NCBI RefSeq assembly: GCF_004116625.1
Contig: NZ_NXIE01000003.1
Span: 372,001 to 436,000, forward strand
Length of the DNA: 64,000 nt
Reading direction: 5' to 3'
DNA from: Halarcobacter mediterraneus
GTDB lineage: Bacteria > Campylobacterota > Campylobacteria > Campylobacterales > Arcobacteraceae
The position numbers were made by a program, and so were the translations under genes. Positions 16,629 to 19,265 of this stretch are shown here, piece by piece (positions within the stretch are counted from its first letter, which is position 1; each line of letters opens with the position of its first letter). Under the pieces are notes generated by a model. That model saw nothing but the letters and a program-made list of their open reading frames with translations, did not search any database and was not told where the DNA came from.

Positions 16629-18449
16629 ATGAGAGATATTAGAAATATTGCCGTAATTGCACACGTTGACCATGGTAAAACAACACTTGTTGATGAGTTA
16701 CTAAAACAGTCTGGAACTTTTGCAGCTCACCAAGAGGTTGATGAAAGGGTTATGGATAGCAATGATATTGAGAAAGAAAGAGGAATTACTATTCTTTCTA
16801 AAAATACTGCTATTGATTACGAAGGTGTAAGAATCAACATTATTGATACTCCAGGACACGCCGATTTTGGTGGAGAAGTTGAGAGGGTTTTAAAAATGGT
16901 TGATTCAGTTTTATTACTAGTTGATGCACAAGAAGGTGTAATGCCTCAAACTAAATTTGTTGTTAAAAAAGCACTTCAATTAGGACATAGACCAATTGTT
17001 GTTGTAAACAAAATTGATAAACCAGCTGGTGAACCTGATAGAGTTGTTGATGAAGTATTTGACCTATTTGACCAAATGGGTGCAGATGAAGAGCAACTTG
17101 AATTCCCAGTAATATATGCAGCAGCTAGAGATGGTTATGCAATGCATGCACTAGAAGATGAGAAGAAAGATTTACAGCCATTATTTGAAACTATTTTAAA
17201 TGAAGTTCCAAAACCAAAAGGAAGCGAAGAAGAAGGTTTACAACTTCAAGTATTTACTCTTGATTATGATAACTTTATTGGAAAGATTGGTATTGCAAGA
17301 ATTTTCAATGGTACTATTTCTCAAGGTGAAACAGTTCTTTTATGTAAAGCAGATGGTGAAAAAGTTAAAGGTAGAGTTACAAAACTTATTGGTTTTAAAG
17401 GTTTAGAGAGAGTTGAAATTAAAACTGCTGGTGCAGGTGATATCTGTGCAGTTGCTGGTTTTGAAACAATTGATGTTGGTGACTCTCTTTGTGATCCAGC
17501 TAACCCAATGCCACTAGACCCAATGCACATTGAAGAACCAACTCTTTCTGTTACTTTTGCTGTTAATGATTCTCCATTAGCTGGAACTGAAGGTAAGTTT
17601 GTTACTTCAAATAAAATTGATGAAAGACTTGCAGCAGAAATGAATACTAATATTGCTATGAATTATGAGCAAATTGGTGAAGGTAAATTTAAAGTTAACG
17701 GAAGAGGTGAACTTCAAATTACTATTTTAGCTGAAAATATGAGAAGAGAAGGTTTTGAGTTCTCTATTGGTAGACCAGAAGTTATTACAAGAGAAGAAAA
17801 TGGTGTAACTATGGAACCATTTGAGCATTTAGTAATTGATACTCCAGATGATTATTCTGGGACAATTATTGAAAAGCTTGGGAAAAGAAAAGCTAATATG
17901 ACAAATATGGTACCTATGGGTGCTGGATTTACAAGATTAGAGTTTGAAATTCCAGCACGTGGACTTATTGGTATAAGAACAGAGTTTTTAACTGATACAA
18001 AAGGTGAGGGTGTTATGAACCACTCATTCTTAGATTTTAGACCACATTCAGGAACAGTTGAATCTAGAAAATATGGAGCACTTGTATCTATGGAAAATGG
18101 AGAAGCTTTAGGTTATTCAATTTTCAATTTACAAGAAAGAGGTGTAATGTATATTAAACCTCAAGATAAAGTTTATAATGGAATGGTAATTGGAGAACAC
18201 GCAAAATCAAATGATCTAGATGTGAATCCAATTAAAGGGAAGCAACTTACTAATGTTAGATCTTCGGGTGCAGATGATGCTATTAAACTTGTTCCACCAA
18301 GAGTGATGTCCTTAGAAAATGCTTTAGAGTGGATCGAAGAAGATGAACTTGTGGAAGTTACTCCTTTAAGTGTAAGAGTAAGGAAAAGAGAACTTGATCC
18401 AACAGTTAGAAAGAGAGCTGCAAAAAAGGCTAAATTCGCAGACGAATAG
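16629..18449 (+). CDS. typA: Ribosome-associated GTPase TypA/BipA
   Basis: The 606-residue translational GTPase has G1 AHVDHGKTT, the switch I region with RGITILSK, G3 [15 protein letters not shown]4 VNKIDKP, then EF-Tu-like domain 2, EF-G-like domains III and V ([24 protein letters not shown], then [15 protein letters not shown]) and the BipA-specific C-terminus. BipA acts on ribosome assembly and stress-related translation. Length is normal. It is transcribed alone from a TATAAT-bearing promoter and followed by a strong terminator. Confidence 0.97.
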
Positions 18450-18473
18450 AATTTAATTTTAAATATCTATTTG

Positions 18474-18511
18474 AAAGGGGAAGAAGCTTTTTGCTTCTTC
18501 CCCTTTTTTTT
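18474..18511 (+). terminator. Rho-independent terminator of typA
   Basis: A 14-bp perfect stem (arms 18474-18487 and 18493-18506, core GGGGAAGAAGC) with a five-base loop is followed by a T-run. It starts 25 bases after the typA stop. Confidence 0.93.
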
Positions 18512-18538
18512 ACAAAAAAATAAAAAAGGGAAAAATAT

Positions 18539-18589
18539 ATGTCCGATGATATGTCGAGGTGGCTTTTAAAATTTAAAAAAATTAAATAG
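18539..18589 (+). CDS. Possible 16-residue leader peptide
   Basis: An ATG at 18539, six bases or so after AAGGG, opens a 16-codon frame, MSDDMSRWLLKFKKIK, ending TAG at 18587-18589. Its first half (TCCGATGATATGTCGAGGTG) is clearly less AT-rich than the surroundings. The stop codon lies inside the 5' arm of a hairpin (18585-18608) that precedes the 31-residue ORF at 18622. This is the layout of a translational attenuator, but the frame is short and could be chance. No clear promoter is seen between it and the typA terminator. Confidence 0.3.
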   Translation: MSDDMSRWLLKFKKIK

Positions 18590-18617
18590 GAGAATTTTTT
18601 CTCCTATTAAAAGGAGA
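18585..18617 (+). promoter_or_regulatory. Two mutually exclusive hairpins around a ribosome binding site
   Basis: AATAGGAGA (18585-18593) can pair with TCTCCTATT (18600-18608). The same TCTCCT (18600-18605) can instead pair with AGGAGA (18612-18617), which is the ribosome site of the 31-residue ORF starting at 18622, across a six-base loop. The first hairpin would leave the ribosome site free and the second would hide it. This can be read from sequence; any regulatory use is inference. Confidence 0.5.
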
Positions 18618-18621
18618 AAAA

Positions 18622-18717
18622 ATGAATAATATAAATACAAATAAAAAAGATTATGCAATAGTAATAACTATCTATATATTAACAATATTTACAACATTTA
18701 TTACAGTAGTTAATTAG
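18622..18717 (+). CDS. 31-residue single-span membrane peptide
   Basis: The frame starts at ATG 18622 with AGGAGA eight bases or so upstream and ends TAG 18715-18717. The peptide has a short polar, Lys-containing N-terminus (MNNINTNKKDY) and one hydrophobic span (AIVITIYILTIFTTFI). It resembles small stress-linked membrane peptides but belongs to no family I can name. It lies between typA and hsp20, and its stop codon is inside the first CIRCE-like element, so it may share regulation with the heat-shock gene only if transcribed from upstream. Confidence 0.5.
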   Translation: MNNINTNKKDYAIVITIYILTIFTTFITVVN

Positions 18718-18740
18718 CACTAAAATAAATAAAATGCTAA
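18714..18740. promoter_or_regulatory. Upstream CIRCE-like inverted repeat (imperfect)
   Basis: TTAGCACTA (18714-18722), N9, AAATGCTAA (18732-18740). Spacing is identical to the CIRCE operator bound by the HrcA repressor, with one arm weaker. It lies five bases before a better copy. Confidence 0.6.
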
Positions 18741-18745
18741 AAATA

Positions 18746-18788
18746 TTAGCACTAATTCTTGACAAGTGCTAAAAATATTTGTTATAAT
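18746..18788 (+). promoter_or_regulatory. CIRCE operator overlapping the hsp20 promoter
   Basis: TTAGCACTA (18746-18754), N9, AAGTGCTAA (18764-18772) is close to the CIRCE consensus. A -35 TTGACA (18759-18764) lies inside it and a -10 TATAAT (18783-18788) follows at 18-bp spacing. HrcA binding would block this promoter, giving heat-inducible hsp20. The hrcA gene is not in the window. Confidence 0.88.
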
Positions 18789-18848
18789 TTCATTAACTTG
18801 ATAACTAAACTATCAAGTAAATTAATAAAATTAAAAAAAGGAGTCAAA

Positions 18849-19265
18849 ATGTTACTTACAAAATTTGATCCATTTAAACAAATGAGAGAGTTAGAAAAAA
18901 ATTTTTATAATTATCCATCTTCAAATGAAGGTGTAGGAAGTTTTGTTCCTGTAGTTAATACAAGGGAAGGTGAAAATGCATTTCATATTGATGTGGATTT
19001 ACCAGGAGTTAAAAAAGAAGATATTAAAGTAGATATAAATAAAAATGTCTTAACTATTTCAGGAGAAAGAAAAACTAAGGAAGAAATTAAAGAAGAAGAT
19101 TATTATAAAGTTGAAACATCATTTGGTAAATTTTCAAGAAGTTTTACAATTCCTGAAAATGTAGATATTGAAAATATTGAAGCAAGAAGTGACAATGGTG
19201 TTTTAGAAGTAGTCATTCCTAAACTTGAAGAACAAAATAATAAAAAAACAATTGAAATAAAATAA
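18849..19265 (+). CDS. hsp20: Small heat shock protein, Hsp20/alpha-crystallin family
   Basis: The start is the ATG at 18849, after AAAGGAGTC. A longer frame opens with TTG at 18759 but that codon is the promoter -35, so it is rejected. The 138-residue chaperone has an N-terminal arm (FDPFKQMRELEKNFY), an alpha-crystallin domain (about 38-125; VDVDLPGVKKEDIKVDI, FSRSFTIPENVD, ARSDNGVLEVVIPK) and a C-terminal I-x-I motif in TIEIK. It holds unfolded proteins without ATP. Regulation by HrcA/CIRCE is strongly suggested by the upstream sites. Confidence 0.95.
   Translation: MLLTKFDPFKQMRELEKNFYNYPSSNEGVGSFVPVVNTREGENAFHIDVDLPGVKKEDIKVDINKNVLTISGERKTKEEIKEEDYYKVETSFGKFSRSFTIPENVDIENIEARSDNGVLEVVIPKLEEQNNKKTIEIK

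Follow-up and report, generated by a model that had tools for sequence, protein, structure and literature searches.

Genes and Features Downstream of typA

The window analyzed here is a 64,000-nucleotide stretch of the Halarcobacter mediterraneus genome. Between typA and hsp20, it carries two short open reading frames, a 16-codon leader (18539-18589) and a 31-codon frame for a putative membrane peptide (18622-18717), both as given in the initial annotation of this DNA, whose coordinates proved correct to within 1-2 bases. From the end of the leader to the start of the second frame run three RNA arms, A, B and C, which can pair in two alternative ways. The features, all on the forward strand, are as follows.

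16629-18449, + strand: typA/bipA, translational GTPase TypA (TIGR01394, 934.6 bits, cut-off 757.3), the constant upstream neighbor
18477-18511, + strand: terminator-like hairpin (18477-18503) followed by eight T, 3′ of typA, recognized from the sequence
18524-18531, + strand: ribosome-site-like AAAAGGGA of the leader ORF, identified by eye
18539-18589, + strand: leader ORF of 16 codons, MSDDMSRWLLKFKKIK, with its stop codon TAG (18587-18589) within arm A
18557-18559, + strand: leader codon 7, AGG, 32 nt ahead of the arm A core
18585-18594, + strand: arm A, AATAGGAGAA, pairing with 18599-18608
18594-18608, + strand: arm B, shared (18599-18608, TTCTCCTATT, with A; 18594-18605 with C)
18612-18623, + strand: arm C, ribosome site AGGAG of the membrane ORF plus spacer, extending into the start codon ATG
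18622-18717, + strand: membrane peptide of 31 codons, MNNINTNKKDYAIVITIYILTIFTTFITVVN
18714-18740, + strand: CIRCE-like operator 1, one mismatch, overlapping the membrane-ORF stop codon
18746-18772, + strand: CIRCE-like operator 2, no mismatches to the pattern, overlapping the hsp20 promoter-like site (18759-18788)
18849-19265, + strand: hsp20 (PF00011, E 5.2e-26), with promoter-like TTGACA-18-TATAAT; outside the switch as read here

The leader had been described as less AT-rich than its surroundings. This holds relative to the three flanking noncoding stretches (GC content 0.148, 0.25 and 0.191, versus 0.275 in the leader) and to the membrane ORF (0.156), but not relative to the window as a whole, whose mean of 0.273 the leader matches; the first 30 nt of the leader reach 0.433. 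No prominent promoter was found between the typA terminator and the leader, where the one candidate scored 9 of 12, and the region contains three promoter-like candidates against 3.7 expected in shuffled sequences. Transcription by read-through from typA is possible.

Two Mutually Exclusive Helices Share Arm B

Helix A:B has 10 pairs closed over a loop of 4 nt (18585-18594 with 18599-18608), while helix B:C has 12 pairs and a loop of 6 nt (18594-18605 with 18612-18623). Since arm B is common to both, the two helices exclude each other, and their computed energies, -12.6 kcal/mol for A:B and -13.6 kcal/mol for B:C, are nearly equal. The pairing and the energies thus bear out the proposal that the 3′ arm of the first hairpin can instead pair with the ribosome site of the next ORF, and the leader stop codon does lie inside the 5′ arm, as had been noted.

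To place this arrangement against the rest of the genome, 344 genes were called in 464 kb of it (a 400-kb sample plus the window, with simple ORF calls of at least 110 codons preceded by a ribosome site), and the DNA upstream of each was scored by the shorter of the two possible helices. In 330 of these upstream stretches, no six pairs could be formed; ten had six, two had seven, one had eight and one had nine. The locus itself scores 10, above all 344. An Rfam scan of 18400-18900 returned 46 matches with E values up to 10, none of them at the gathering score, and many of these sub-threshold matches fall on the typA terminator. In the same genome, a different gene (L164, near 14488 in G000:C1) has a hairpin next to its stop codon, and the 3′ arm of this hairpin fits the next ribosome site over six pairs.

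Distribution of the Unit in Arcobacteraceae

Among 60 near genomes, 31 gave a match to the membrane peptide in a permissive search (E up to 1), a count that includes chance matches; with a profile of the peptide, matches at E 0.01 were obtained in 45 of 104 Arcobacteraceae genomes. Inspection of all 49 matched places divided them into two sets. In set 1 (38 genomes), the unit follows typA at a distance of no more than about 0.8 kb, with one locus per genome and with the leader and arms preceding the peptide in every case. In set 2 (11 genomes; L081-L083 and L088-L095), paralogues of the membrane peptide stand directly 3′ of hsp20; four genomes (G004, G024, G029 and G091) have loci of both sets. 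The hsp20 stop codon of set-2 loci is in several cases placed within an A-like arm, but the hairpin is missing in three of the eleven, where the ribosome site follows the hsp20 stop immediately, and some near relatives, including the window genome, have a plain hairpin and no peptide on the 3′ side of hsp20. We therefore treat set 1 as the conserved switch and set 2 as a looser cousin. At L098 (G007) and L109 (G005), too, small hydrophobic ORFs lie 3′ of hsp20; they end in NMPH, and their ribosome site adjoins a similar hairpin.

Set-1 loci differ in what separates typA from the leader. An unknown 105-codon gene is inserted in G001 (L137), a gene that by eye resembles an acetyltransferase in G005 (L141), and a further frame apparently in G013, G014, G015, G030 and G113. 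Loci with an inserted gene keep the arms while their leaders are without MSDD and AGG (fully read only in G001 and G005). The next downstream frame runs in the same direction in 27 of the 38 loci and in the opposite direction in 11.

A covariance model, R1, built on 13 sequences of which two are off-register in arm A, recovered the known locus in all set-1 genomes but G001 (37 of 38). All R1 matches with E up to 0.01 fall on such known places, and the weaker ones (E 0.01 to 0.1) comprise the known place of G013, opposite-strand matches at known places, and scattered matches. A pattern of the exact core, searched in a species collection, retrieved 13 stretches, all labeled Arcobacter, Poseidonibacter, Campylobacteraceae or Campylobacterales. 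When the peptide profile was run against 298 genomes of the order, 15 were matched, 12 of them within the family; the other three matches were weak, lay in frames of 136, 835 and 60 codons and were taken as chance.

Both Folds Are Conserved among Set-1 Loci

The 38 set-1 loci were anchored on arm B by a script that maximizes pairs and requires GGAG or GGGG, CTCC, and GGAG or GAAG as anchors. A MAFFT alignment (A2) was also made from 36 of the 38 loci, without G013 and G005; since it mis-set arms A and C, counts were taken from the anchored script, which covers all 38. The script misplaced arm C in G032 and gave a bulged match in G109; both were kept in the counts, while their B:C values are meaningless in the temperature-fold and energy computations. 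The pairs at offsets 0 to +3 are made largely by construction through the anchors and prove little, so the evidence lies in the outer offsets.

Helix A:B is paired in all 38 loci at every offset from -3 to +4, among them -3 and -2, which C does not usually use. At offset -3, A-U is replaced by G-C on both sides in G001, G004, G032 and G091, which represent three genera. For helix B:C, pairing holds in 35 to 38 loci over offsets -1 to +9, spacer positions dispensable for a ribosome site among them. Here, both-sided changes occur at +5 (G002), +7 (G109, the bulged match), +8 (G120, G124, G119, G114, G115, G030 and G113) and +9 (G014 and G015). When partners were shuffled among genomes, 169.3 of 190 positions (sd 1.1) remained paired in the A:B flank against 174 observed, and 209.1 of 228 (sd 2.2) in B:C against 225 observed; none of 2000 trials reached the observed value for either helix, with relatedness not removed. 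The covariation check suggested by the initial annotation thus found both helices kept in 38 genomes, with compensatory changes outside the shared core, and both folds look to be under selection as judged from these sequences.

The near-equality of the two folds is also conserved. Their energies lie within 3 kcal/mol of each other in 33 of the 38 loci, and B:C is the lower in 24 of all 38 on a short RNA; on a longer RNA at equilibrium at 37 °C, B:C leads in 30 of 36 usable genomes, with a fraction of 0.94 in the window. The barrier of the direct path between A:B and B:C has a median of 12.95 kcal/mol and lies between 11.8 and 15.4 kcal/mol in 36 of 38, an upper estimate that ignores strand exchange through pseudoknots. 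With such a barrier, unaided exchange between the folds should be slow.

One may ask whether these are chance hairpins of AT-rich DNA, in which B and C are complementary simply because 5′ arms tend to be rich in purines. Hairpins of this purine-rich kind are indeed present 3′ of both typA and hsp20, and the looser layout of set 2, with three of eleven hairpins missing, would fit such an origin. It leaves unaccounted for, however, the both-sided changes in those parts of B that serve a single partner, the absence of an equal score from the 344 other upstream stretches, and the leader ORF found in 34 of 38 loci (see below), and we regard it as very improbable.

A Leader ORF with a Fixed Stop Position

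With a looser ribosome site allowed, a leader of 9-21 codons can be assigned in all 38 set-1 loci, and in each of them the leader stop begins 2 to 10 nt ahead of the arm A core. A short ORF with a strict ribosome site that ends at A is present in 34 of the 38, compared with 1.4 expected when the upstream DNA is shuffled; restricted to ATG starts, the figures are 29 and 0.6. Leader starts were picked by a score.

Many of the leader peptides begin with M-S-D-D or M-S-D followed by K/R-R/W or R-I. For the first nine codons of eight MSDD leaders, pN/pS is 0.27, compared with 1.1 and 1.6 in the other frames; elsewhere, leader pN/pS values are 0.37 in three genomes, 0.85 in three, and 2.3 in seven of genus g6. 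The position of the stop is thus more constant across leaders than the peptide sequence. The acidic and then basic residues of the leader also suggested a Mg-sensing, MgtL-like reading, which was set aside as conjectural.

AGG accounts for 28 of the 40 arginine codons in the leaders, compared with 6.7% of the arginine codons in 345 called genes of the window genome, where the leader counts are not independent and the background comes from one genome. The codon is present in 24 of 38 leaders, mostly at codons 6 to 8, and stands 20 to 50 nt before arm A, never closer than 20 nt to the A core. The 14 leaders without AGG include all seven with an apparent frame between typA and the leader.

The reach of a terminating ribosome over the arms was computed from the real stop positions and an assumed reach of 12 nt past the first base of the stop codon, in keeping with general ribosome geometry. 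On this assumption, a ribosome that terminates the leader would cover the arm A core in 37 of 38 loci; from its leading edge to the arm B core there would be 0 to 6 nt in 33 loci and 10 to 14 nt in five. Such a ribosome would therefore break A:B and leave the B core to C.

Temperature and the Neighboring hsp20 Gene

The initial annotation had also raised the layout of a thermosensor next to hsp20, and the RNA was folded at several temperatures. The ribosome-site bases GGAGA are unpaired with a probability of at most 0.09 from 20 to 42 °C, and in many of the 38 loci the folds barely move with temperature. In the window genome, A:B does rise somewhat with heat (0.06 at 37 °C, 0.20 at 45 °C), but B:C is still at 0.80 at 45 °C. 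Moreover, the downstream position of hsp20 in the window, which invites such a reading, is accompanied by a 12-of-12 σ70-like promoter site of its own and by CIRCE operators. An RNA thermosensor for either the small ORF or hsp20 is therefore scarcely credible.

The two CIRCE-like HrcA operators ahead of hsp20 are arranged in tandem, and the stop codon of the membrane ORF lies inside the first. The adjacency to hsp20 is not general, as 16 of the 38 set-1 genomes have no match to this hsp20 at E 1e-10. Synteny was rejected as proof of hsp20 control; the constant neighbor is typA (38 of 38). Nevertheless, the link between hsp20 and the peptide is not empty, because the paralogues of set 2 lie directly behind hsp20 in 11 genomes.

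The Membrane Peptide and a Possible Antisense RNA

The peptide has an I-N-T-N-like stretch at its N-terminus in many members, D-Y in all 38 set-1 members and a hydrophobic stretch, recognized by eye, with frequent T and S. A variable site within this stretch is occupied by Y in 26 members, E in nine, Q in two and H in one. Among five near relatives, pN/pS is 0.19. The peptide has no match in NCBIfam and none above the cut-off in Pfam, where one match at E 0.2 lies below it. That it serves as the partner of something or as a channel is a guess.

A small, hydrophobic peptide whose ribosome site is hidden also resembles the toxin of a type I toxin-antitoxin system. In such a system, an antisense RNA started in or behind the ORF would cover the ribosome site and end at A:B, acting as its terminator, while B:C would keep the message shut. 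For aapA3/IsoA3, a peptide of 30 residues, an antisense RNA of 80 nt and a ribosome site covered by short hairpins are described (PMC6733600). Read on the antisense strand, A:B has a tail with at least five T in eight positions in 35 of 38 loci, a tail that none of the 38 shows on the sense strand; in the window, hairpin and T-rich tail span 18577-18608. This tail, the weightiest finding against a simple reading of the unit, could be the end of an antisense RNA, and it is not merely the end of opposed genes, since the next downstream frame runs the same way in most loci. By comparison, a like T run precedes 160 of 399 stop codons (ORFs of at least 150 codons in this genome) and is found at 576 of 1366 positions within leaders. 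A conserved antisense promoter at the D-Y codons was considered and rejected, as its -10-like box is altered in 7 of 38 loci (GAC or TAC). This reading further leaves the conserved short ORF with its ribosome site ending at A unexplained, given that an antisense RNA alone needs no leader, and one copy in one place behind typA in 38 genomes is, in our judgement, unlike most toxin loci. We consider it unlikely.

A Probable Leader-Run Translational Switch

On the sequence evidence, the unit is very probably a translational switch run by the leader ORF, and ribosomes on the leader probably decide whether the membrane peptide is made. The leader, the place of its stop, the two helices, their mutual exclusion and their near-equal energy lead us to favor a translational attenuator in which the peptide is made when translation of the leader fails, a reading to which we assign a probability of about one half. 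The layout of leader-ORF translational attenuation proposed initially is supported at the level of sequence, with leader, stop position, both helices and bistability all conserved.

According to this model, the mRNA behind typA would carry the leader, the three arms and the membrane ORF. As the RNA is made, A would pair with B first, before C exists, so that C, with the ribosome site, would be open. A ribosome that translates the leader to its stop, which lies within arm A or shortly ahead of it, would break A:B, and the arm B core just ahead of the ribosome would then pair with C and close the site. If the ribosome were halted early, for example at the AGG near codon 8, or had never started, A:B would stay and the site would be open. 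A completed leader would thus mean a closed site, and a leader halted or not started an open one, the sign of the response being inferred, as are the existence of the transcript, the pause at AGG, the signal and the membrane role of the peptide. Closing may not need the leader, since B:C already leads at 37 °C in most usable genomes.

The same lead of B:C, together with the loosening of its outer part that a ribosome at the leader stop would also cause, makes the opposite sign possible. In this positive coupling, comparable to upstream frames of the mok-hok or uof-fur type, B:C would close the site by default; a ribosome ending the leader would melt the outer B:C, the site would open and A:B would then hold B away. 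The dominance of B:C at equilibrium in 30 of 36 usable genomes agrees with such a default, and the footprint of a terminating leader ribosome would extend over arm A and into the outer, T-rich side of B. Among the set-2 paralogues directly behind hsp20, moreover, the three without a hairpin are most naturally read as plain coupling. On the other hand, the inner B:C still forms (at least 0.98 in the 36 usable genomes) in an RNA that begins at the assumed edge of the ribosome, with all leader stops set to -2 for the computation, and A:B would have only a secondary part although it is paired in 38 of 38 loci. We see positive coupling as a possible, though not the favored, mode of action.

More speculatively, and with considerable doubt, the favored attenuator can be extended as follows. 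The family-wide, nearly isoenergetic switch would sense the progress of ribosomes in the 9-21-codon leader, with the rare AGG as the usual halt. It would signal general translation trouble, rather than the lack of one amino acid, and a new small protein would carry this signal to the membrane. In the paralogous loci, hsp20 would have replaced the leader, and in several of them its stop codon falls within the arm; the peptide would thereby be coupled to the output of the heat-shock response.

Comparison with Known Systems

Leader-peptide translational attenuators are known from genes of the ermC and cat-86 type. The unit described here shares with them a short upstream ORF with a ribosome site, alternative hairpins of which one hides the next ribosome site, and the selection of the fold by ribosome position. 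It differs in having three arms, not four, in the placement of the leader stop in or just before an arm, and in its target, a small membrane peptide instead of a resistance gene; no antibiotic stall motif was recognized. Judged by its parts, the unit would work like a leader-peptide translational attenuator.

Within the same phylum, the portions of two reports cited here propose that the leader peptides LeuL, TrpL and MetL of Campylobacter jejuni and its relatives act via transcription termination (PMC11955535, PMC3847290). The second of them predicted amino-acid leader peptides in this class, naming these three, and compared three Arcobacter genomes. Like our leader, these are ORFs proposed to work through their own translation; as described in those portions, they precede amino-acid genes and contain several codons of the sensed amino acid, whereas the leaders behind typA contain no more than one or two of the rare AGG codons and would act on a ribosome site.

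The aapA/IsoA type I toxin-antitoxin systems of Helicobacter pylori, with a 30-residue toxin and an 80-nt antisense RNA in the excerpted account (PMC6733600), resemble the unit in the peptide of about 30 residues, in the ribosome site held in short hairpins that form in succession and in belonging to the same phylum. The cited passages describe no leader ORF and place the antisense promoter, which was tested there, in the toxin ORF, whereas a conserved antisense promoter was not found at our 38 loci. The 5′ leader of phage MS2, as outlined in the same source, offers a further likeness, as a short-lived fold lets translation proceed before the RNA settles into its final closed form (PMC6733600); this is a phage RNA, and the likeness is limited to the order of events in time. 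In the open literature on Arcobacter and Arcobacteraceae, represented mostly by titles, no such element was recognized and nothing on this locus was found.

If the proposed reading is true, it would add to Arcobacteraceae a conserved and genetically simple translational switch, along with a family of small membrane proteins without an above-cut-off match in Pfam or NCBIfam. The near-equal folds and the fixed position of the leader stop would make the geometry between leader and arms directly testable, and the paralogues behind hsp20 raise the question of what part the peptide may play in stress.
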